Counted from the stretch's first letter, positions 1 to 62,772 are shown. The stretch: DNA of 64,000 nt from a virus (IMGVR_UViG_3300009418_004817:1-64000), one strand, 5' to 3'. Numbers and translations are program-made. Notes: a model not told the origin generated them from the letters alone.

Positions 1-169
1 CAATCCACCCTTTGCGATCACAAACCCAACATTTGTAATAACCTTTCTTTATATTAACACTTAGCTTTCTCTTGTGATGATTGCAAAAAGAGCAATGAAA
101 AAGATATTCGTTGCCCGTGTGATAACAAGAACCTAATACGTTCTTTAAAATTGTAAGCTTTTTTTCCAC
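1..169 (-). CDS. DNA primase-like zinc ribbon protein, N-terminus only (runs off window)
   Basis: This is a partial gene that leaves the window at base 1. From a GTG at 169-167 the frame stays open and reads VEKKLTILKNV and then a zinc-ribbon pattern: a CxxH-type element, F-H-C-S-F-C-N-H-H, and about 20 residues later K-C-W-V-C-D-R-K-G-W. This CxxC...CxxC arrangement with a following aromatic/basic stretch is typical of the DnaG or T7 gp4-type primase zinc-binding domain, which reads the template trinucleotide. The start lies inside the end of the RuvC-like gene (25 nt overlap), a usual arrangement in this genome. Only a weak CAGG precedes the GTG, so the start is the least certain part. The toprim and helicase parts would be outside the window. 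A different zinc-ribbon protein remains possible. Confidence 0.7.
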   Translation of the reverse strand, partial: MEKKLTILKNVLGSCYHTGNEYLFHCSFCNHHKRKLSVNIKKGYYKCWVCDRKGWI

Positions 170-6696: not shown

Positions 6697-9600
6697 TAAT
6701 ATGTTCCCATTGATCCCATCGAGCCGGCTGAACCGCCACCGCCTAGGGCACCACCTGTTGTGCCACCGACACCTTCAGTTAAATCGCCAACAGATTGCGG
6801 GGCCGCGAACTCTTCAACTATTGGAAGTTCGTCAGAGCCTGGAGGTATGAGACGATCTCTTTCTCGTGTTGCTGTTCCTGCTTCTTCTAAAGCCTGAGTT
6901 TTTTGTATTATAAAATAGTTATCATACGATGGTATATCTAGACCCTCACCAGCCCTAACGCTTGGTAAGTTCTGATGTTCAAATCTCCTAAGCCTACAAA
7001 GAATTTCTGTGTTTTTAAAATCTCTTAATTGTTGCATTGTAGCAGTTCGCCAAACTGGTCGTTTTATTAAAACCCCGTCCTCTGTAGACTTAACATATCC
7101 AGACAAAAATTCAACCTTCTGCAACAACAAATAATTGAATATGAAAGCATTTTCAGTTGCGAGATTTGTTGATAAATTTTGAAAATTGTGATTCACTTTG
7201 TCATTGTATCCAGCAGCGTCGGCAAGAATCGATTTAAGTTGCAGTGGCATAGCCTCAATAATCCGTTCGTTGATTGCTCTCGTGCGAGCCTTTTTCGGAT
7301 CCGTCGCAACGCCGGCAAGCTCAAGAAGCTTCTCTATGGTAAACCTCTCTGCATTTCCTAGACGCTGTTGTGGATTTGGTATCGATTCACCTTGATCGCC
7401 AATAAAAACCCGGGACATTGGTGCCGGCGGAATTGTCAACGCAAACCCGGAAACCAATTTTGCCAAAAATAAATTAGGATTTTGAGACTCGTTTGGATCC
7501 ATTATTTCTTCTTTATATGGTTTGGTTTGAACTTCTGCCGGCGCCGTCGCAGCCTTTAATACATCTCCGGTGTTTATAAACCTATCCTCTTCTTTATCTT
7601 TTTTTTCGTAAATTAATGATGGTTCAACCATGGTAAGATTAAAAGCTTCAAGAGTCTTCAATAAATTATATTTTATTTTTTGTTTGGCCGGCTTAAGTTT
7701 AGAAGTTGTTTTTGTTTCATACTTAGAATTATACAAACCTCCAGTGCTCTTATAGCTGAGAATTTTAGTGGCACACAGATCGTTAATCTCTTTATTCCAT
7801 AAATCAACTTCCTGATTATTAAAAGAATATTGTTTATTTCCCAAGACAGCAATCGACGGAGAGAGATGAATAGGCGTAGTAAGAATCATTGTGTTTAACG
7901 AGACCACTGGTGTGTTGACGTCGCTCGTGAGAGATATGTTGTCATCAACGTTTTTATAATATTTTAACATTTCTGTATTTAATCTTTCTCTAAAAACATT
8001 GAGTCCAATGATCTCTAGTCCAGTAGCAGCAGCACGAGATGTAGCAAACTTGGAAGTGGACAGATAATCAAACCCTACGTTTTTTGGTGTATCACTGTCA
8101 AATAATTCAGCAAAATATTTCTCTACTTTGAATGTTTTCATTGGTTTTGAGCCAACGTTGCTAGCTGTAGAGCTTCGATCTGAAGAACTGCTTACCATTC
8201 TATTACTGGAGATGTTAATCAAGCTCTCTAGTTCTTGCAAAACGTTATTTACAAGCTTTGAGAATAACAACACTCCTCTAGGATCTTTTGCACTGGGATG
8301 AGTAACCCTCTTTACAAGACTTCTAGCCCCTCGAAATTGAGATATCAAATGCTTATTGCCTCTAACAAACAAGTCATCTACTATTTCAAAATATACTTGA
8401 ATCGCCGGCACAACTTTGTCTTCCCATTCTTTTTCAAGATCCAGATTTGGTAAATTATAAACATTGGGTATGTTTAATATATTAATATATTCATCTAATC
8501 CGCCAGTCGAGAGAACTGGACTTCCAGATTTCTCTCTCAGCAATCTATTATAACGATTAACTAACAAATCGATTGATCGATCTTCAATTTCTAATTCAAT
8601 TCCATATTGAAAATGCCCATATGTCTGTTTTGAAACATCAAAATCAACACCAGTGAAGTGTCTGATGTGTTTATAGGCCCGGGGCTCGCGATTAACTACT
8701 TTCGTTTCTCTTATCGTTCCTAAATCAGTGCTAATAGTAGAAGGAAATACCGCAATTGTTTCTTCTGTTGTGTTTTTATCAAATATTTTTTCGCTAATAG
8801 AGGTCCCGCCGAGCTTATTTGTCCCGGGTAATGGAACAACTCTTCTTCTTTTTACCTTCAAAGACCTTATTATTGTATTGTTTACAATGTTGTTGAACAT
8901 GCGTTCTGAAACGTTTGAGAAGTATTTTCCAAAAACCGTATTCTCCAATATCAATTTTCGAAAATCTAAACTAAAGAAAAATCTGGCGTTGCCAATGTTA
9001 TCTCTCGTAACAAAGAAATCAGAAAAATAGGCAGAATTTCTCACAATATCCATATTGTCATTAGTTAATATATTTATTCGATGTGTGCGTGATAAAAACT
9101 TGTTTTCTGACAAATCTGGCAAAAGTTGTAAACCTTCAAGACGTTTGACTCTCCTAAAATCTTGTATAACAGTATCACCGCCACTGCCGGCTATTCCATG
9201 AATTTCAAAATTATCAACAACTTTTCGATATTCAACACGACCAGACACTTTCCTAAGACTATCTGGCAAATCAATTCCAAAATCCGCATCAGTAAAATCA
9301 TAATAAGAAAAGATAAAGTATGTTAAATGCTCATGATTAGACGTATCATCTATATTAAATTGAAATTTAAAAGGTATATTCCAGGCTGTGTTTCCATCGG
9401 AATCTATTGTCCTAAACTGAGTGCCTTCTCTTTCTTTTAAAATGTCAGTAATCGAAATTTCTTTAGTAGAAAAAAATCTTTGTTTTAGATTTAGAGTGCT
9501 CAATTTTACATCAATTGGATTTGATGGTTTGTTTGAAACATTTGGCCGATAACCGGTCCTGCGTCCTATAGGTGCCTCTGCCATTGACAAGGCCGTCATA

Positions 9601-9965
9601 ACAGGGGTATTGGGTTCATCTAGCCAATTTATTATTGCTTCGGTTGTGCCTGACTTAGTACTTTGTATAATCTTTACTTTCAAATACTTACCAAGAAGTT
9701 CATCGTTAAGCCAACCAGTTAATAAACCACCAGAATCTATTTCTCGAATAGCGGCGTCTACTGTAACAACGAGACCTGGTTCAATCTGTCTATAAGAATC
9801 GATTGCTGCAAATAACTGAACTTGTGGCGGTGTTCTTGTTGTAGTGATGTTGCTCTTTAACGCTGAACGTTTAGAAATGGATCCAGCAGAACTACCTTCT
9901 TCTAATGTTATCTTAGAGAAAGAAACAGTAGGACAAAAACTTTCCTCTTGTATGCACTCGGGCAT
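6696..9965 (-). CDS. Large virion structural protein with Gly-rich C-terminus
   Basis: The 1089-residue protein has no recognised catalytic motif. Its body is mixed alpha/beta with many basic and Asn-rich segments. The last 25 residues are a low-complexity Gly/Ser/Met tail with GGG repeats, probably flexible. The stop overlaps the start of the next gene (TAATG), so translation of the two is probably coupled. The position between the shared-N-terminal-domain protein at 9974-10837 and the 887-residue protein places it in the tail or baseplate module. The size suggests a baseplate arm or fibre-network component. This is inference from context. Codon usage and AT content match the neighbours. Confidence 0.65.
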   Translation of the reverse strand: MPECIQEESFCPTVSFSKITLEEGSSAGSISKRSALKSNITTTRTPPQVQLFAAIDSYRQIEPGLVVTVDAAIREIDSGGLLTGWLNDELLGKYLKVKIIQSTKSGTTEAIINWLDEPNTPVMTALSMAEAPIGRRTGYRPNVSNKPSNPIDVKLSTLNLKQRFFSTKEISITDILKEREGTQFRTIDSDGNTAWNIPFKFQFNIDDTSNHEHLTYFIFSYYDFTDADFGIDLPDSLRKVSGRVEYRKVVDNFEIHGIAGSGGDTVIQDFRRVKRLEGLQLLPDLSENKFLSRTHRINILTNDNMDIVRNSAYFSDFFVTRDNIGNARFFFSLDFRKLILENTVFGKYFSNVSERMFNNIVNNTIIRSLKVKRRRVVPLPGTNKLGGTSISEKIFDKNTTEETIAVFPSTISTDLGTIRETKVVNREPRAYKHIRHFTGVDFDVSKQTYGHFQYGIELEIEDRSIDLLVNRYNRLLREKSGSPVLSTGGLDEYINILNIPNVYNLPNLDLEKEWEDKVVPAIQVYFEIVDDLFVRGNKHLISQFRGARSLVKRVTHPSAKDPRGVLLFSKLVNNVLQELESLINISSNRMVSSSSDRSSTASNVGSKPMKTFKVEKYFAELFDSDTPKNVGFDYLSTSKFATSRAAATGLEIIGLNVFRERLNTEMLKYYKNVDDNISLTSDVNTPVVSLNTMILTTPIHLSPSIAVLGNKQYSFNNQEVDLWNKEINDLCATKILSYKSTGGLYNSKYETKTTSKLKPAKQKIKYNLLKTLEAFNLTMVEPSLIYEKKDKEEDRFINTGDVLKAATAPAEVQTKPYKEEIMDPNESQNPNLFLAKLVSGFALTIPPAPMSRVFIGDQGESIPNPQQRLGNAERFTIEKLLELAGVATDPKKARTRAINERIIEAMPLQLKSILADAAGYNDKVNHNFQNLSTNLATENAFIFNYLLLQKVEFLSGYVKSTEDGVLIKRPVWRTATMQQLRDFKNTEILCRLRRFEHQNLPSVRAGEGLDIPSYDNYFIIQKTQALEEAGTATRERDRLIPPGSDELPIVEEFAAPQSVGDLTEGVGGTTGGALGGGGSAGSMGSMGTY

Positions 9966-55498: not shown

Positions 55499-56170
55499 CT
55501 ATTCTTCGTATTCTTTAAAGACTAAATTTTCAATTTTTTCATAAAGTTTGGGACTGATCTTGGATAAGTACCCAGGATCTTTGAGAAAATAAAAATCAAA
55601 GCCGTCTGCAAAGTATTCTCTCAGCGATGTTGCTCCATATGGAGAAGAAAATAATCCCATAGTCATATAAGTGAGTTTGTCGTATCCAATATGTTGATAT
55701 AAATATTCATCAAAATCTTCATTATAATCTAATTCATCAAAATATTCTTTTGAAACACCGTATTCCTCGGCTTTCATTATTTCATAAAGTCTGTTTCTTT
55801 TTCCGAGAAACTCTTTAATAATTGTTTGATCAGAATAGATGTACTCAGCTAGTCTTTCTTCGACCAAGTGAGCTATCTCATGAACAAGGTCTTCAACCAT
55901 GTTATCTTCATCACTTTGGTAATTGGTAATATATATTGTTCCATCTTTATAAATCGAATTTAGACTTCTTTCATCCAGTTCATCAAATTGACCAATAAAG
56001 ATAGTTTCTAAGCCGTATATCAAATGCTCCGGAACTATTTTTTTTATGAAATTCAGTACATAGTCCAAATTAAAACCATTTGGCAATGAATCCTTGATAT
56101 AGGTATAGATATTGTTAATTAATACTTTTTGTTTTGACTCTTTGAGTGTATTTTCGATATACTCGTTCAC
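55499..56170 (-). CDS. Zinc metallopeptidase, anthrax-lethal-factor-like (HExxH)
   Basis: The 223-residue protein has D-L-V-H-E-I-A-H-L-V-E-E with the zinc-binding HExxH at residues 97-101 and a downstream S-L-R-E-Y-F-A-D-G-F-D-F-Y-F with Glu185 as the candidate third ligand. This spacing (about 85 residues) and the E-Y-F-A-[DE]-[GA]-F motif resemble the lethal-factor-like (ATLF/M34-type) gluzincins. No signal peptide is seen, so it should act in the cytoplasm of the infected cell or in the virion. A GTG start is used. It lies between the small acidic 95-residue protein and the nuclease. The substrate is unknown. A role in processing a phage or host protein is inference. Confidence 0.75.
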   Translation of the reverse strand: MNEYIENTLKESKQKVLINNIYTYIKDSLPNGFNLDYVLNFIKKIVPEHLIYGLETIFIGQFDELDERSLNSIYKDGTIYITNYQSDEDNMVEDLVHEIAHLVEERLAEYIYSDQTIIKEFLGKRNRLYEIMKAEEYGVSKEYFDELDYNEDFDEYLYQHIGYDKLTYMTMGLFSSPYGATSLREYFADGFDFYFLKDPGYLSKISPKLYEKIENLVFKEYEE

Positions 56171-58129: not shown

Positions 58130-58845
58130 AGCGCCCTTAACATATTTGCTCTTTGTTGTCTGTGATTGCTTTCGGGTCGTTGTGCTACGTAAAGATCCAA
58201 CGTTTTTTCTGGATCTTCTCTCAAAATACGTCTAAATCCACTAACACCGGTAGAATTAGCAATTGCAAGTGCCCAAGATAACCTTTCTGATGGCCAACCA
58301 GCATCTCTGGCATAGTATGCTGCAGCTAATACTCTGTCTCTCCACTCCAGCAATTGATAACCTGCTCCATAAGGGTATATATGTAGCGTTAGATCGACTA
58401 AGTTGACCCATTGACGGGTGTAGTATGGACAAGAGCCGGCGGCTTGTATGACGCTGCTAGCGTCCCATGGGGACCACTCTAAAATACCCTCCGGAGGTTG
58501 AAAATGGAAGAGTCCATGAGCGCCACAATCTGTCCGGACAATATCATAGGGTCTTTTGCCAATTCGATCGGGCGCAGCTATAATTTGTATAGCTTCAAGC
58601 TCAAATCTTCTGAGGCGTGTGACTCGCGAGTCGAAATCGTGAGAATTTCCCATAAATTCAATATATTGTTCTAAATCCATATAACAAAATTCGAATTCAG
58701 CTGGACAATAATCATAATTTATGGGCAAACACGAAGGATAACTCATCAAATATTCGAATTCGTGTATTTCAGTGTTAGTAATTGAAGCGAGAGAAATATT
58801 GGAGCTGCACAAAACAATTAAAGCAATTAAATTAAATAATTTCAT
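58126..58845 (-). CDS. Exported protein, possible muralytic enzyme
   Basis: The 239-residue protein starts MKLFNLIALIVLCSSNISLA, a clear signal peptide (basic n-region, hydrophobic core, A-S-x-A type end near residue 20). The mature part has several Cys, compatible with a periplasmic, disulfide-bonded protein. The segment D-C-G-A-H-G-L-F-H-F-Q-P-P-E-G, then W-D-A-S-S and a downstream helix E-W-R-D-R-V-L-A-A-A-Y-Y-A-R recall transglycosylase-like folds (A-x-G-L-x-Q), but the catalytic Glu is not certain. It overlaps ClpP by 14 nt and the holin-like gene by 4 nt. A secreted endolysin is a reasonable but unproven assignment. Confidence 0.6.
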   Translation of the reverse strand: MKLFNLIALIVLCSSNISLASITNTEIHEFEYLMSYPSCLPINYDYCPAEFEFCYMDLEQYIEFMGNSHDFDSRVTRLRRFELEAIQIIAAPDRIGKRPYDIVRTDCGAHGLFHFQPPEGILEWSPWDASSVIQAAGSCPYYTRQWVNLVDLTLHIYPYGAGYQLLEWRDRVLAAAYYARDAGWPSERLSWALAIANSTGVSGFRRILREDPEKTLDLYVAQRPESNHRQQRANMLRAL

Positions 58846-59434
58846 CTACCAGGCCATATTCTAGACATTGTTCAGCATTAAACCATAAATCGTGCTTAAG
58901 AATTTCTTCTAGCTTCTTTTTAGGTATTTTTGTATATTTCGTATAAATATCTTTGATCATTTTCATAAATCGATCACAATTTTTCATATCATCTTTGATT
59001 TCTTCGTATTTTCCCCAAATTCCACTTGAAAGCTGGTGAATTAGCATGTAAGAATGTGCTGTGATATATCTTTCTTCCGCAACAACGCTCATGAGTGTCG
59101 CTGCAGAAGCAGCACAGCCCTCAACTATGCTATGTACCGGTGTTACTGATTTTCGTATGTAATCAATTGTCGAAAAAGCAGCAAAAACACTGCCTCCAAA
59201 GCTTTGTATGTGAAGATGTATATTTGGAACAGCTGCATCAAGTGTGTTCGATCGATTTATGAGTTCTTTGTCTAGCTTTCGAAGTGATTTGTTTAAAGTT
59301 AGGATTTTTGTTCTTTTTACTTCGGAATAAAAATAGATTCTGTTTTGTTCTATTATTATGGTGTCATCATCAGTAGATGAAGAATCTTCTTCATTTGATT
59401 GTGACGCAGCCCAAAATAAATCGACTTTTTTCAT
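58832..59434 (-). CDS. clpP: ClpP-type serine protease
   Basis: The 200-residue length is normal for ClpP. The nucleophile is Ser110 in E-G-C-A-A-S-A-A-T, the catalytic His is His133 in Y-M-L-I-H-Q-L-S-S-G, and the Asp is Asp182 in K-H-D-L-W-F-N-A-E-Q-C-L-E-Y-G-L-V-D. The oxyanion loop is Q-S-F-G-G-S-V-F, with the ClpP-like Gly-Gly. No AAA+ partner is visible in the window, so it would rely on host ClpX/ClpA or work alone. An alternative is a head-maturation protease, which in some phages is a ClpP fold, but no capsid genes are near. The tmRNA lies 1.5 kb upstream on the same strand, which fits a tag-and-degrade branch. An acidic, Ser-rich N-terminal extension precedes the core. Confidence 0.88.
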   Translation of the reverse strand: MKKVDLFWAASQSNEEDSSSTDDDTIIIEQNRIYFYSEVKRTKILTLNKSLRKLDKELINRSNTLDAAVPNIHLHIQSFGGSVFAAFSTIDYIRKSVTPVHSIVEGCAASAATLMSVVAEERYITAHSYMLIHQLSSGIWGKYEEIKDDMKNCDRFMKMIKDIYTKYTKIPKKKLEEILKHDLWFNAEQCLEYGLVDEII

Positions 59435-59670
59435 TATTTTCTCTTCTTATTCTTCTTCTTTTCCACTAAATCTGATCTGAGGCGTTTTTTTACACGAAAA
59501 TTGCTTTCACATCGTTTAATCTTGTAATCGTAATCGTTTTTTATCTCTTTTTCTTCTTCTACCTTCGCAACGGCCTCATTATAAGTAGAAAGGTGAGCAA
59601 TTACTGTCCAAGGTCGGCCCGTTTTGACGGTTTTTTCATTTTTTATGTTAAATTTTTCACTTTTTTTCAT
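59434..59670 (-). CDS. Small, very basic protein (78 aa)
   Basis: The protein is Lys/Arg-rich (about one third of residues), with a central T-G-R-P-W-T-V-I-A-H-L-S-T-Y-N-E-A segment and a C-terminal run of Lys/Arg. AGAAGGAGG stands before the ATG, one of the strongest ribosome sites of the window, so it is probably highly made. Its stop overlaps the ClpP start (TAATG). The basic tails suggest RNA or ribosome contact; given the nearby tmRNA this might be an RNA-binding helper, but it does not show the SmpB pattern. No family recognised. Confidence 0.65.
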   Translation of the reverse strand: MKKSEKFNIKNEKTVKTGRPWTVIAHLSTYNEAVAKVEEEKEIKNDYDYKIKRCESNFRVKKRLRSDLVEKKKNKKRK

Positions 59671-59800
59671 TTCTTGTCCTCCTTCTTATATACCTAAGTT
59701 TTAATTCTTTGTATATCATACAAATTGAAACTATCAAAAAACATATGTACATCACAACAATAGACGATATCAAAGCCATAAATAACCAATGTTTTTCCAT
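59657..59800 (-). CDS. 47-residue single-pass membrane protein
   Basis: This short ORF reads MEKHWLFMALISSIVVMYIC, continues with a hydrophobic run to about residue 30, then basic R-Y-I-R-R-R-T-R-N-E-K-K. It overlaps the stop of the FtsZ-like gene (TAATG) and ends 14 nt inside the 78-residue gene. One membrane helix followed by a strongly basic tail gives an N-out/C-in topology. It has no good ribosome site of its own and would depend on translational coupling with the FtsZ-like gene. It could be a membrane tether for that GTPase, by analogy with small FtsZ anchors; this is inference. Confidence 0.5.
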   Translation of the reverse strand: MEKHWLFMALISSIVVMYICFLIVSICMIYKELKLRYIRRRTRNEKK

Positions 59801-60951
59801 TATCTGATTTTTAAAAACCTTTTAAGCTCTTCTAGACGTTTTTCGGGTGCAGCGAGGCCGCCAATCATCGTATAAGCCGTCAATTTCTCTCTTTTGGAGT
59901 CTTCGTAGATGCCACGATGAATAATTGCTCCATCTGTCAAAGATCCGAGCGTGTCAAAGCCATATTCGATGTAATCCATCAATCCAGCGACCTCTTCATA
60001 CATCGTAGTACCTCCAACAACGATTGAAGCAGCTGCTGTGGCTGTTTTTAGGTCAAATCCTCCGGCTAAAAGCGTTTTTTCGAGGTTTGCCTTCAATGCG
60101 TTGGCAATAGAGGTCTCGTGATCGACCTCCCTGACTGTTGTAACACCCATGATCATGCACCCCTGGCTCTTCATGACCGAGTCATAGTCCATAGGGTCAA
60201 AGGACGTATAGTCGCTATTTTGGGCACATAGGACGTTAAATACGTGAAACAGGCCGGCAACTGTGTTGTTTAGTGTCGGCCAGAACTTCTTGACGGTCAA
60301 AGATGGGTATAATTTCTTGATCTTGTCATTATCAACCATAATAAGCGGTGCAAAATCACCATTTGCAGCCCGAACACACAGTTCTGATACCTTATTGAAG
60401 GCATTTTTGGCCACAATAGACGATGCACACTCACCATTTGTCGGCAAAGACACAATAACACCCACTCTTTCGCTGGCATCTTCTCTTCCGACGTATGTAA
60501 AGTAGCGTTTTGCAATATCAACTAGTGCATTTACGCTTCCGCCGCCTGTACCGCCGGCCGCGCCGACACAAACAAGGATTCGATCGATGTTTTCACCGAA
60601 AATTTCCCTTAATTTGTTAAAAATCTCTTGACTTCTGCCTTCAAAAGCCTCTCTGCCTCTTTCCTGATTCTTGCCGGCGCCTTGTCCACTAAAATAGTCC
60701 ACAAAAAACTTGTGTTCTTCTGGAAGTTCCAATAAATTAAGGTCAGATTGCGCTGTGTTGAACGCAATAGTCTTCTTATAGCCGAGATCATAGAAAGCTT
60801 TGGCAATTCTACCTCCTCCTTGGCCAGATCCAATGACAGCATAAGTCAAAGCACCTCCGGATTCGTCTTCGACACCGTTTTTTTGAGTTTGTTCCTCTAA
60901 ATTTGGGTCAAGATCTTCAATATCTAATGTTGGAATGTCTAATTCAATCAT
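59800..60951 (-). CDS. FtsZ/tubulin-like GTPase
   Basis: The 383-residue form starts at 60951; the longer open frame would run into the tmRNA. Features are V-I-G-S-G-Q-G-G-G-R-I near residues 39-49 (T1 loop), A-F-N-T-A-Q-S-D-L (T2/T3 region), V-G-A-A-G-G-T-G-G-G-S near 129-139 (the tubulin/FtsZ GTP signature, usual GGGTGxG), and F-D-P-M-D-Y-D-S-V-M near 251-260, the T7-type catalytic loop that hydrolyses GTP of the next subunit. Together they indicate an assembling GTPase, similar to phage PhuZ/TubZ or archaeal FtsZ-like proteins. GAGGAG lies 12 nt before the ATG, inside a 14 bp palindrome. The role could be positioning phage replication or interfering with host division. Confidence 0.85.
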   Translation of the reverse strand: MIELDIPTLDIEDLDPNLEEQTQKNGVEDESGGALTYAVIGSGQGGGRIAKAFYDLGYKKTIAFNTAQSDLNLLELPEEHKFFVDYFSGQGAGKNQERGREAFEGRSQEIFNKLREIFGENIDRILVCVGAAGGTGGGSVNALVDIAKRYFTYVGREDASERVGVIVSLPTNGECASSIVAKNAFNKVSELCVRAANGDFAPLIMVDNDKIKKLYPSLTVKKFWPTLNNTVAGLFHVFNVLCAQNSDYTSFDPMDYDSVMKSQGCMIMGVTTVREVDHETSIANALKANLEKTLLAGGFDLKTATAAASIVVGGTTMYEEVAGLMDYIEYGFDTLGSLTDGAIIHRGIYEDSKREKLTAYTMIGGLAAPEKRLEELKRFLKIR

Positions 60952-60963
60952 AATTATAATTTT

Positions 60964-60977
60964 CTCCTCTAGAGGAG
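60964..60977. promoter_or_regulatory. 14 bp palindrome joining tmRNA 3' end and FtsZ-like ribosome site
   Basis: The perfect palindrome CTCCTCTAGAGGAG spans the last bases of the tmRNA acceptor stem and the GAGGAG ribosome site of the FtsZ-like gene. On the minus strand the tmRNA end (CCTCCT) could pair with GAGGAG. When the tmRNA folds, its 3' bases pair instead with its own 5' end (GGGGGTG), leaving the ribosome site free. This gives a possible switch in which tmRNA folding or processing allows translation of the GTPase. The pairing is directly visible; the regulatory reading is inference. Confidence 0.45.
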
Positions 60978-61318
60978 GTGGCGAGAATCGAACTCGCGTC
61001 CTAAATGCTTCAGTTAATTTTTCGTTCACAAGGTTAGTTAGATTTTAGCCTCTAACAAGCGTTTTATGAAAAAAAGAGACCCAACCACTCTTTCAAAACC
61101 ACCTACTACCTGTAGGGTAACTTCATTTTTGATCTTGACTTTGGTTTACAGGGTGTCAAGCTCAAAAAAACCCTGTTCTTACACTCTAGGCTGCTAGTGC
61201 GTAAGAATTGTCGTAAATACCATCATTGGCAATTATCATTTGAGCGTTTTTAATGTGCCGCGCTCCCCACATCCTTGCAAAATTAACTTCTTTCACTCAG
61301 TCGAACCCTTTCACCCCC
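60973..61318 (-). ncRNA. ssrA: tmRNA (transfer-messenger RNA), phage-encoded
   Basis: The RNA is one-piece, about 346 nt. The 5' end GGGGGTGAAAGGGTTCGACT has the conserved GGxTTCGAC of the tmRNA D-loop region. The 3' end has the T arm GCGAGTTCGATTCTCGC and the acceptor strand CACCTCC, which pairs with GGGGGTG over 7 bp (one G-U). CCA is not encoded. The tag frame begins near GCC at 61230-61228 and reads ANDGIYDNSYALAA before TAG at 61188-61186, ending in the usual YALAA that ClpXP recognises. The RNA frees stalled ribosomes and tags nascent proteins for proteolysis. The strong promoter and leader RNA upstream are on the same strand. A partner smpB is not in the window. Confidence 0.93.
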
Positions 61319-61562
61319 TAATAATATAAATAGTTTGTTAAAATAGAATCCGAAAACAACTTCATGAGGGGTCGATCTCTCGCTCCACGACCATACTAGC
61401 CTACCTTCACGCCTCGTTGTAGACATTGAGGAGAAACTCATTGTATAATGCGGTCGGTTCCGCGCATCCTCATGAAGCCGTTGGTCAAAGCTACGAAAAA
61501 CCGTTGTTTAACAACATTTGACCGCCTCCTTTATTAAAAAAATGATCCATGATATACATAAT
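61319..61562 (-). ncRNA. Structured leader RNA upstream of the tmRNA
   Basis: The transcript from the promoter at 61569-61596 would begin near 61562 and pass this 240 nt region before the tmRNA. Helices seen on the minus strand: 61517-61523 with 61483-61489 (7 bp), a long-range helix 61468-61477 with 61360-61369 (10 bp, CTTCATGAGG/CCTCATGAAG), a hairpin 61448-61467 flush with one end of that helix, and a hairpin 61370-61392 flush with its other end. This is a compact multi-helix junction with no spacer bases at the helix ends, unlikely by chance. No match to a known class comes to mind (not RNase P, 6S or hammerhead). It may be a cis-regulator or an independent sRNA freed by tmRNA processing. 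Confidence 0.65.
61491..61517 (-). CDS. Leader ORF of 8 codons
   Basis: Just after the promoter an AAAGGAGG site stands 7 nt before ATG. The frame reads M-L-L-N-N-G-F-S and stops at TAG. The ORF lies in the loop of the 7 bp helix 61517-61523/61483-61489, so a ribosome translating it would open this helix. Strong ribosome site, short peptide and overlap with RNA structure are the hallmarks of attenuation-type leader peptides. It could report ribosome availability to the downstream RNA, a logical input for a tmRNA locus. Regulation is inference. Confidence 0.45.
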   Translation of the reverse strand: MLLNNGFS

Positions 61563-61568
61563 ACTAGT

Positions 61569-61596
61569 ATTATAACACATTTGACCAAAAAGTCAA
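61569..61596 (-). promoter_or_regulatory. Strong sigma70-type promoter for leader RNA, tmRNA and downstream genes
   Basis: On the minus strand TTGACT (61596-61591) and TATAAT (61574-61569) are separated by 16 bp, with TGT right before the -10 (extended -10). This is the best housekeeping-type promoter I found in the window. The -35 overlaps the stop codon (TGA at 61595-61593) of the upstream gene, and TTGAC with GTCAA forms a 5 bp inverted repeat that could also be an operator or a weak hairpin. It would let host RNA polymerase express the tmRNA locus early, without the phage late sigma factor. Confidence 0.8.
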
Positions 61597-61967
61597 GGAA
61601 TAATTTCACTTTCATCAAAATAATAATTTATCTTATATCGTCTGCTAAATTTATTCATATCTTGTATACTAATACCCAGAAATCGAGCGGCTTCGCCCTT
61701 TGTTTTGGTTGCCGTGGAAGTAAATTTTAATATTGCATCTCTTACAAGATCTGGAATTGCCAGCCATATCGGCAATCCATAAAGATAACCGCCCGCAGCC
61801 CGATTTGCAAGTTCTAGTTTAAGCCCAATAACTTCTTCAAGGGTAAGTTTATTCAACATTACCTCAAATTCTTCTGTTGATTTGCCTTTTTTGCGAAGTT
61901 GTGTTATTATGCTGTGATTTTTGGTAGATTTTTTTCTTCTACCGGTGAGTTTTCGTTCCCAGGCCAT
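61593..61967 (-). CDS. Small basic protein with HTH-like C-terminal segment
   Basis: The 124-residue protein has a very basic N-terminus (W-E-R-K-L-T-G-R-R-K-K-S) and a helical middle (L-T-L-E-E-V-I-G-L-K-L-E-L-A-N-R). The C-terminal part, T-K-T-K-G-E-A-A-R-F-L-G-I-S-I-Q-D-M-N-K-F-S-R-R-Y, has the form of a Fis-type helix-turn-helix, with A-A-x-x-L-G-I and a basic second helix. A DNA-binding regulator is likely; it is encoded directly before the tmRNA promoter and its stop codon lies in the -35 box, so it might regulate that promoter. This last step is inference. Confidence 0.65.
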   Translation of the reverse strand: MAWERKLTGRRKKSTKNHSIITQLRKKGKSTEEFEVMLNKLTLEEVIGLKLELANRAAGGYLYGLPIWLAIPDLVRDAILKFTSTATKTKGEAARFLGISIQDMNKFSRRYKINYYFDESEIIP

Positions 61968-61968
61968 A

Positions 61969-62772
61969 TTAAAGCTCTAGTTCTAGTTCCTCTTCGCCTT
62001 CTGGAGCGCCGAATTCCTCGGGACTCTCTGCAGTTGCCTCATCATATTCTGGCGTAGTGGGCTCTTCTAAGCCCATCTTCATTTCATCATCAAATTTATC
62101 AAAATAAAGTTTAATATTGGTGATCAAATAATCGTAAAATAACTCTCGATCTTCACTATTGGCAAGAAGCTCATATGAATCCAAAATATTCTTTTCAATT
62201 TTCTTGAAAGTGGATGCAGCCATGTTTCTTCCGGTTTCATCTTCGCCTTCAATCGAAAAATCGTCCTCTTCATCTTCTGGTTTTGGGTCTGGGTCAATAT
62301 CAATAAATGCTTCATCGCCCAAATCTGGGCCTTCGTCATCACCAATAGTGATATCAATATCTTCATCTTCTTCTTCCAGTGAGCGCAATTCTGCTTCTTT
62401 AATACTACCTCTCAGATTTGCTACAGCTCTTGATGGAGCAAGTGCGTTCTTAATCCCTTTTACAACATGGGCCCGAAAGGATTGTTTTTGTTCTTCTGCT
62501 GTTGTAAGAATTTTATAATCAGTTTCAATAACTGGAATTATTTTCTTCAACAAATCTTCCAATACGTTAATACCGGTGTTTTCATGAGGCGTTTCATCTG
62601 AAATTTCGGCAGCTTCAGTTATAATAAGCTTTCGAATAATACTTCGAAGCTCCTTTTCCTCATTAAGCTGTTGTTTTTCCTCTCTTTTACGTTTTTCTAA
62701 AACGATGTTAATAATTTTTCGTATAGATTCTCGCAAAACGAGTTCTTCAGCAAATTCTTGACGATCGATCAT
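61969..62772 (-). CDS. Highly acidic helical protein, scaffold-like
   Basis: The 267-residue protein has an N-terminal part with two similar helices (L-R-E-S-I-R-K-I-I-N-I-V-L-E-K and L-R-S-I-I-R-K-L-I-I-T-E-A), a very acidic middle (about residues 130-180, D/E-rich, including I-D-I-D-P-D-P-K-P) and an acidic C-terminal tail. A good GGAGAC site precedes the ATG. The high charge and helix content recall scaffolding or chaperone proteins of T4-like phages, where similar R-x-I-I-R-x-L-I helices are found. No capsid genes are in the window to confirm this. It overlaps the nucleotidyltransferase gene by 4 nt. Confidence 0.6.
   Translation of the reverse strand: MIDRQEFAEELVLRESIRKIINIVLEKRKREEKQQLNEEKELRSIIRKLIITEAAEISDETPHENTGINVLEDLLKKIIPVIETDYKILTTAEEQKQSFRAHVVKGIKNALAPSRAVANLRGSIKEAELRSLEEEDEDIDITIGDDEGPDLGDEAFIDIDPDPKPEDEEDDFSIEGEDETGRNMAASTFKKIEKNILDSYELLANSEDRELFYDYLITNIKLYFDKFDDEMKMGLEEPTTPEYDEATAESPEEFGAPEGEEELELEL

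Follow-up and report, generated by a model that had tools for sequence, protein, structure and literature searches.

A covariation-supported structured RNA beside the tmRNA gene of an uncultivated marine phage clade

Introduction

Transfer-messenger RNA (tmRNA) genes have been counted in 402 of 18,146 phage genomes (PMC9004378). The tmRNA of phage Melnitz is a two-piece molecule, said to be preceded by an early promoter and a glutamine riboswitch (PMC9004378), and huge phages have been found to encode both tmRNA and SmpB (PMC7162821). In phages, tmRNAs tend to be recorded as sporadic curiosities; in the uncultivated marine lineage described here, by contrast, a tmRNA is maintained at a constant site. 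We analysed this site in a window of 64,000 nucleotides (IMGVR_UViG_3300009418_004817:1-64000), taken from a virus record of 75,777 bases. The new part is a structured RNA beside the tmRNA. The open-licence literature yielded no description of this RNA, of a locus combining tmRNA, TubZ and ClpP, or of the fixed tmRNA site of the clade.

Results

Parts of the locus

In the order of minus-strand transcription, the locus comprises p267, p124, a promoter, a leader, tmRNA, a GTPase, two small ORFs and ClpP (Table 1), all of these parts and positions being computed. An earlier note on this DNA had proposed a compact rescue-and-proteolysis unit; the promoter, leader, tmRNA, GTPase, two small ORFs and intact-triad ClpP that it named are all where it placed them, and its leader RNA proved to be a new structured RNA.

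Table 1. Features of the locus in order of minus-strand transcription (window positions)
Feature	Position	Strand	Basis or remark
p267, protein, clade marker used for synteny count	61969..62772	minus	
p124, protein kept immediately 5' of structured RNA	61593..61967	minus	
Sigma-70-type promoter TTGACT-16-TATAAT, TG ahead of -10, 11/12 consensus matches	61569..61596	minus	
Tiny leader ORF MLLNNGFS	61491..61517	minus	GGAGG Shine-Dalgarno at 61525-61529
Structured RNA	61358..61479	minus	Model core 61370-61432; closing stem P1, hairpins P2, P3
tmRNA (ssrA), tag ANDGIYDNSYALAA	60970..61318	minus	Rfam RF00023, ARAGORN
TubZ-like tubulin-family GTPase, 383 aa	59800..60951	minus	Pfam, fold match
47-aa ORF, single hydrophobic stretch, probable small membrane protein	59657..59800	minus	By eye
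78-aa lysine-rich protein	59434..59670	minus	Similar protein 5' of ClpP in L007
ClpP-family protease, intact catalytic triad, optional neighbour	58832..59434	minus	Pfam

The promoter overlaps the stop codon of p124. Pfam and PHROG searches with p124 gave no match; by eye, its C-terminus resembles a Fis-type helix-turn-helix. Baseplate wedge protein genes lie among the neighbours, and the phage is therefore taken to be contractile-tailed. No cultured relatives of the clade were found, and p267 has no relative among cultured phages. Elsewhere in the window (55499-56170) lies a gene for a putative zinc metallopeptidase with an HEIAH motif and a weak Pfam ATLF match under the cut-off; it adjoins PhoH, an arrangement conserved in 82 loci.

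Fold and covariation of the structured RNA

The leader of the window is weakly similar to the gap between p124 and tmRNA in other phages, and reading these gaps revealed one common architecture: the closing stem, P1, encloses two hairpins, P2 and P3, which are separated by a linker, and the loop of P2 pairs with this linker to form a pseudoknot. In the window, P1 pairs 61479-61468 with 61369-61358. P1, P2 and P3 are fully paired in 23 hand-parsed instances, partly by choice, as stems were selected sequence by sequence; such selection is absent only from the pseudoknot test and the model searches. Of the 138 pseudoknot cells in these instances, 129 are paired, whereas shuffling the partners gives 75%, with a maximum of 83%. 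Furthermore, a covariance model built from eight other sequences, without the pseudoknot, recovered the window at E = 7e-8.

In a 24-sequence alignment, 92.6% of cells are paired, a share that falls to 32-49% once the partners are shifted by 1-3 columns, and two-sided changes number 70, compared to 22.8 in shuffles. All six pseudoknot pairs display two-sided changes, the pseudoknot having been left out of alignment building. The alignment employed in the structure test (A10) was fitted to model R1, itself seeded by alignment A9; the MAFFT alignments A5-A8 were excluded because they misalign the second hairpin. The structured RNA is thus strongly supported by covariation. Single-sequence folding is unremarkable (z of -1.1 for the 226-nt leader of the window, -2.3 for the 122-nt motif, and a mean of -2.1 for the 23 instances), and folding energy alone was not used as evidence, since the value for the 226-nt leader is not significant.

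The RNA itself has no match at gathering score in Rfam 15 (window, L054 and eight loci), and when Rfam was searched to E 5 all matches fell under the gathering scores of their own families. A permuted-tmRNA identity (RF04321, just above threshold in L016 and L017) was rejected, as the match covers, along with part of the RNA, the 5' half of the complete tmRNA next to it.

Distribution and surroundings of the structured RNA

Run over 2.1 Mb of sequence, the refined model produced 34 matches, representing 33 records since L016 and L135 are the same contig, and all matches up to E 0.002 lie within the p124/tmRNA neighbourhood. Across 143 genomes of one bacterial class, the single match falls on a phage contig that had been assigned to a bacterial MAG, and on this contig the order p124-RNA-tmRNA-ClpP is repeated. 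This lone match, together with the absence of the RNA from Rfam 15, makes it look like a phage RNA family.

At 22 loci, the RNA shares its strand with tmRNA and precedes it by 19-889 nt. A whole-record search placed 12 RNA matches 19-844 nt 5' of a tmRNA on the same strand, and a whole-record tmRNA search added one more RNA upstream of tmRNA (L091, approximately 16 nt). Upstream of the RNA (within 180 nt), TTGAC[AT]-16..18-TATAAT occurs at 12 of 26 loci, compared to 1.4% of random windows, and a GGAGG-led ORF of 2-8 codons occurs at five of 26, compared to 0.3%, although the nominal p-values of both comparisons exaggerate the enrichment, since they assume independence among loci that are related. 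The strict consensus promoter is thus found at only about half of the RNA loci. The peptides of the tiny ORFs are MLLNNGFS, MYS, MLVI, VLIS and MH.

These surroundings leave several readings of the RNA, the foremost alternative to a small RNA co-expressed with tmRNA being that it belongs to the 3' end of p124, as an untranslated region or terminator set free as a small RNA, and is close to tmRNA by chance. The RNA lies 7-180 nt 3' of p124 in most loci. This reading would agree with the near-constant 41-42 nt between p124 and the RNA in many of them, and with the U-tract (at least six T in eight bases) that follows P1 in 12 of 21 cases, as against 3.8% in random sequence and 6% after genes. It would also agree with five RNA-bearing loci at which tmRNA was not detected (L048, L099, L101, L108 and L165), owing to which the RNA is not strictly tied to tmRNA. 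However, a strict promoter of its own stands between p124 and the RNA at the 12 loci mentioned, and the RNA directly abuts tmRNA in L016 (24 nt), L017, L064 and L124 (19-24 nt in all four), the distance in the window being 39 nt. We therefore regard an origin as a p124 3' end as unlikely, though it is the alternative to be taken most seriously.

A further reading is that of an attenuator, in which P1 and the U-tract would stop transcription ahead of tmRNA unless a ribosome on the tiny ORF, or a ligand, held P1 open. The five loci with tiny Shine-Dalgarno-led ORFs between promoter and RNA are consistent with such a device, as are the stop codon of the window's tiny ORF, located 12 nt ahead of P1, the U-tracts after P1, and the conservation of pseudoknot and loops. 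Yet the tiny ORFs are confined to those five loci of 26, the U-tract is weak or absent at several loci where the RNA abuts tmRNA (L016, L017 and L124), and no alternative antiterminator helix was identified. Attenuation is consequently less likely than the small-RNA reading, and we consider it improbable. The same low standing is given to its bolder form, a self-tuning rescue switch in which the pseudoknotted RNA would sense translation through the 2-8 codon leader ORF, such that stalled ribosomes would release tmRNA synthesis.

The tmRNA

The tmRNA of the window matches RF00023 with 109.3 bits (cut-off 47), with model positions 1-374 covered, and is a complete, one-piece molecule. In the alignment, its acceptor stem is full (GGGGGUG with CACCUCC) and the alanine identity pair G3-U70 is present in the tRNA-like domain. 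The tag ORF identified by ARAGORN, ANDGIYDNSYALAA, terminates in a ClpX-type LAA followed by a stop codon, and nearly all tmRNAs of the clade possess complete LAA-type tags. The 3' CCA is absent from the DNA of the window and would therefore need to be added, whereas L066 encodes its CCA. A search of 49 related records, which may be incomplete, gave no SmpB, whereas it was positive in ten of ten control bacteria. Since only some 18 nt separate tmRNA from the GTPase gene in the window, the latter is almost certainly transcribed through tmRNA.

Several observations concern the sequence around the tmRNA in relatives. In L131, L137, L145, L161 and L164, the 5' end of tmRNA overlaps the called end of p124 by approximately 30-40 nt, and tmRNA processing would therefore cut the p124 message. 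A conserved ORF of approximately 70 aa (MWK-YKWNGHYIQGDLISKHSSE type) lies immediately 5' of tmRNA in many relatives, among them L090, L104, L110, L115, L136 and L148, and highly cysteine-rich mini-proteins (CCCCCGCC type) occupy this place in L087, L096 and L125. In L007, the interval from tmRNA to the small protein-ClpP pair (9247-9690) consists of approximately 440 nt without long ORFs, with a second promoter-like TTGACA at its start, and is possibly another structured RNA.

The tubulin-family GTPase

The GTPase matches Pfam Tubulin (1.8e-10, 41.8 bits, cut-off 33) and TubZ-like_C (5.7e-7, 30.1 bits, cut-off 26), and its closest solved relative by sequence is RepX/TubZ. Fold comparison of an AlphaFold model (mean pLDDT 72.6) ranked TubZ highest (Z 31.1 for 4ei7 and 30.5 for 2xka), ahead of CetZ (28.9) and FtsZ (~25), and Foldseek likewise placed TubZ first. 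The C-terminal linker and tail peptide of FtsZ are absent, as the protein stops right past the last predicted helix (370-381). The GTPase is closer to TubZ than to FtsZ and should be called TubZ-like. Of the FtsZ/tubulin-like label in the earlier note, the tubulin family thus stands, with TubZ rather than FtsZ as the nearer relation; the argument that FtsZ is a ClpXP substrate is weakened accordingly, the protein being TubZ-like and without the FtsZ tail.

GTPase relatives of 64-74% identity are located near ClpP in L052, L066, L080, L081, L082 and L086, and a more distant version lies immediately 3' of tmRNA in L131, L137, L138, L151, L153 and L154. In many other relatives the tubulin-like gene is tens of kb away, and it is no fixed member of the unit. 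These relatives were collected via the ClpP and p267 searches; a one-sequence search of viral contigs returned none. Another ClpP-bearing group (L003, L004, L006, L008, L023 and others) encodes highly divergent tubulin-like proteins of 280-284 aa with a GLGQAGCNI-type motif.

The ClpP-family protease

The protease matches Pfam ClpP at 6.1e-29, and the S/H/D catalytic triad is invariant in all 66 aligned phage ClpP sequences. For the docking of ClpX we considered the positions that form the hydrophobic IGF-loop pocket of E. coli ClpP (Y60, Y62, F82, M92 and L114). Polar or charged residues replace it: Y62 is H in 63 of 66 sequences, M92 is D or E in all 66, and L114 is mostly H, R or N. As judged from these residues, the phage ClpP would lack the hydrophobic ClpX-docking pocket. 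Its best PHROG is a head maturation protease family, and the ClpP of the window may have a role in head maturation.

An AAA_2 domain (unfoldase) scores above the cut-off in three of 49 related records. One such gene, of ClpX-like size (428 aa), lies at 663-1253 of G002, the record of L015, in which ClpP is present and tmRNA was not detected. A second ClpP is encoded at another site in many of the larger records; in the two relatives examined it adjoins a 419-440 aa protein and GroEL, and its catalytic Asp position is aligned to Asn. In these (L167 3761-7251 and L169 6981-10596), the second ClpP is followed by the 419-440 aa protein and then by a phage GroEL of 525-526 aa.

Synteny across the clade

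The bait p267, which is independent of both tmRNA and ClpP, yielded 57 clusters at 90% identity, 51 of them with at least 5 kb downstream. In 38 of these 51 a tmRNA is present, always on the p267 strand and 0.4-2.7 kb 3' of p267; within the fetched flank, ClpP is nearby in only four and a tubulin-like gene in three. With ClpP as bait, a tmRNA was found 0.24-7.4 kb away in 15 of 26 clade clusters with enough upstream sequence (14 of the 15 on the same strand), compared to none of the 16 ClpP clusters that lack clade markers. The tmRNA side is flipped in L081 and L086, where it lies on the strand opposite to GTPase-ClpP. The bait counts and this inversion indicate two separable units: p124, the structured RNA and tmRNA are conserved, and the TubZ-like GTPase and ClpP are optional. 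The grouping of tmRNA with ClpP, which the earlier note proposed to look for in related contigs, recurs when viewed from ClpP and is mostly missing when viewed from p267.

This bears on the model of the earlier note, a single operon in which tmRNA would tag proteins, phage ClpP with host ClpX would degrade them, and the turnover of an FtsZ-like polymer would be controlled. The shared strand and tight spacing in the window and the proximity of tmRNA to ClpP in clade ClpP clusters are in its favor, and the recurrence of the neighbourhood is the part of the proposed programme that stood. However, most of the clade has tmRNA without nearby ClpP, ClpP clusters without the marker genes have no tmRNA, the 49 related records gave no SmpB and an AAA_2 unfoldase in only three, the two units lie on opposite strands in L081 and L086, the ClpX pocket is altered, and the GTPase is TubZ rather than FtsZ; such an operon is very unlikely. 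Least credible of all is a tmRNA captured from hosts as passive cargo without a selected role, for although phage tmRNAs are scattered in other groups, as the genome count cited above illustrates, 38 of 51 clusters of the clade retain theirs in the same position and orientation, nearly all with complete LAA-type tags.

Discussion

The covariation, the clade-wide association and the promoter and U-tract enrichments were computed; what we infer is that the RNAs are expressed and processed, that the tmRNA is active, and whatever function the structured RNA may have. Our preferred reading, in which we place about even confidence, is that this clade of contractile-tailed marine phages possesses a noncoding-RNA locus rather than a tight rescue-and-proteolysis operon, the RNA being likeliest a discrete small RNA and the tmRNA functional. 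From the end of p124, a promoter of host type would drive the pseudoknotted RNA and then the phage tmRNA. The latter most likely works normally with host alanyl-tRNA synthetase, EF-Tu and SmpB (the host SmpB being presumed), and would free ribosomes stalled on broken mRNAs during infection, with the LAA-ended tag directing the tagged fragments to ClpXP of the host. For the structured RNA, the likeliest identity is a small noncoding RNA expressed together with tmRNA. Where it abuts tmRNA, at 24 nt in L016 and at 39 nt in the window, it would be included in the precursor of tmRNA and is probably removed by cleavage; at loci where it stands farther upstream, its end is often P1 and a U-tract, in the manner of a stand-alone small RNA. 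In the phage of the window, the TubZ-like GTPase would be read through from the tmRNA transcript, and ClpP would be an optional neighbour with a role of its own.

As the tmRNA is kept at a fixed place across the lineage, ribosome rescue looks to be part of normal infection in these phages. Furthermore, separating the conserved from the optional parts corrects an appealing operon story.

The tmRNA described here belongs to the same RNA family as bacterial and phage tmRNAs, shares their tag logic and, like that of Melnitz, is phage-borne. Unlike the Melnitz molecule it is in one piece, and the structured RNA next to it matches no Rfam riboswitch. It is also far more frequent: about three quarters of the clade carry it, as against 2.3% of phage genomes (PMC9004378). 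With leader-peptide attenuators and riboswitches the locus shares a promoter, sometimes a tiny Shine-Dalgarno-led ORF, a structured element, and a stem with a U-tract; in contrast to these, its architecture varies among loci. The GTPase finds its best fold match in the TubZ/RepX segregation tubulins of plasmids and phages and shares their TubZ-like C-terminal Pfam domain, yet identity is approximately 20% and the gene stands behind a tmRNA. Finally, the protease shares its fold family and catalytic triad with ClpP (S14) and the ClpP-like head maturation proteases of phages, but it differs from canonical ClpP in the residues of the ClpX-docking pocket and in that larger relatives often possess a second ClpP.
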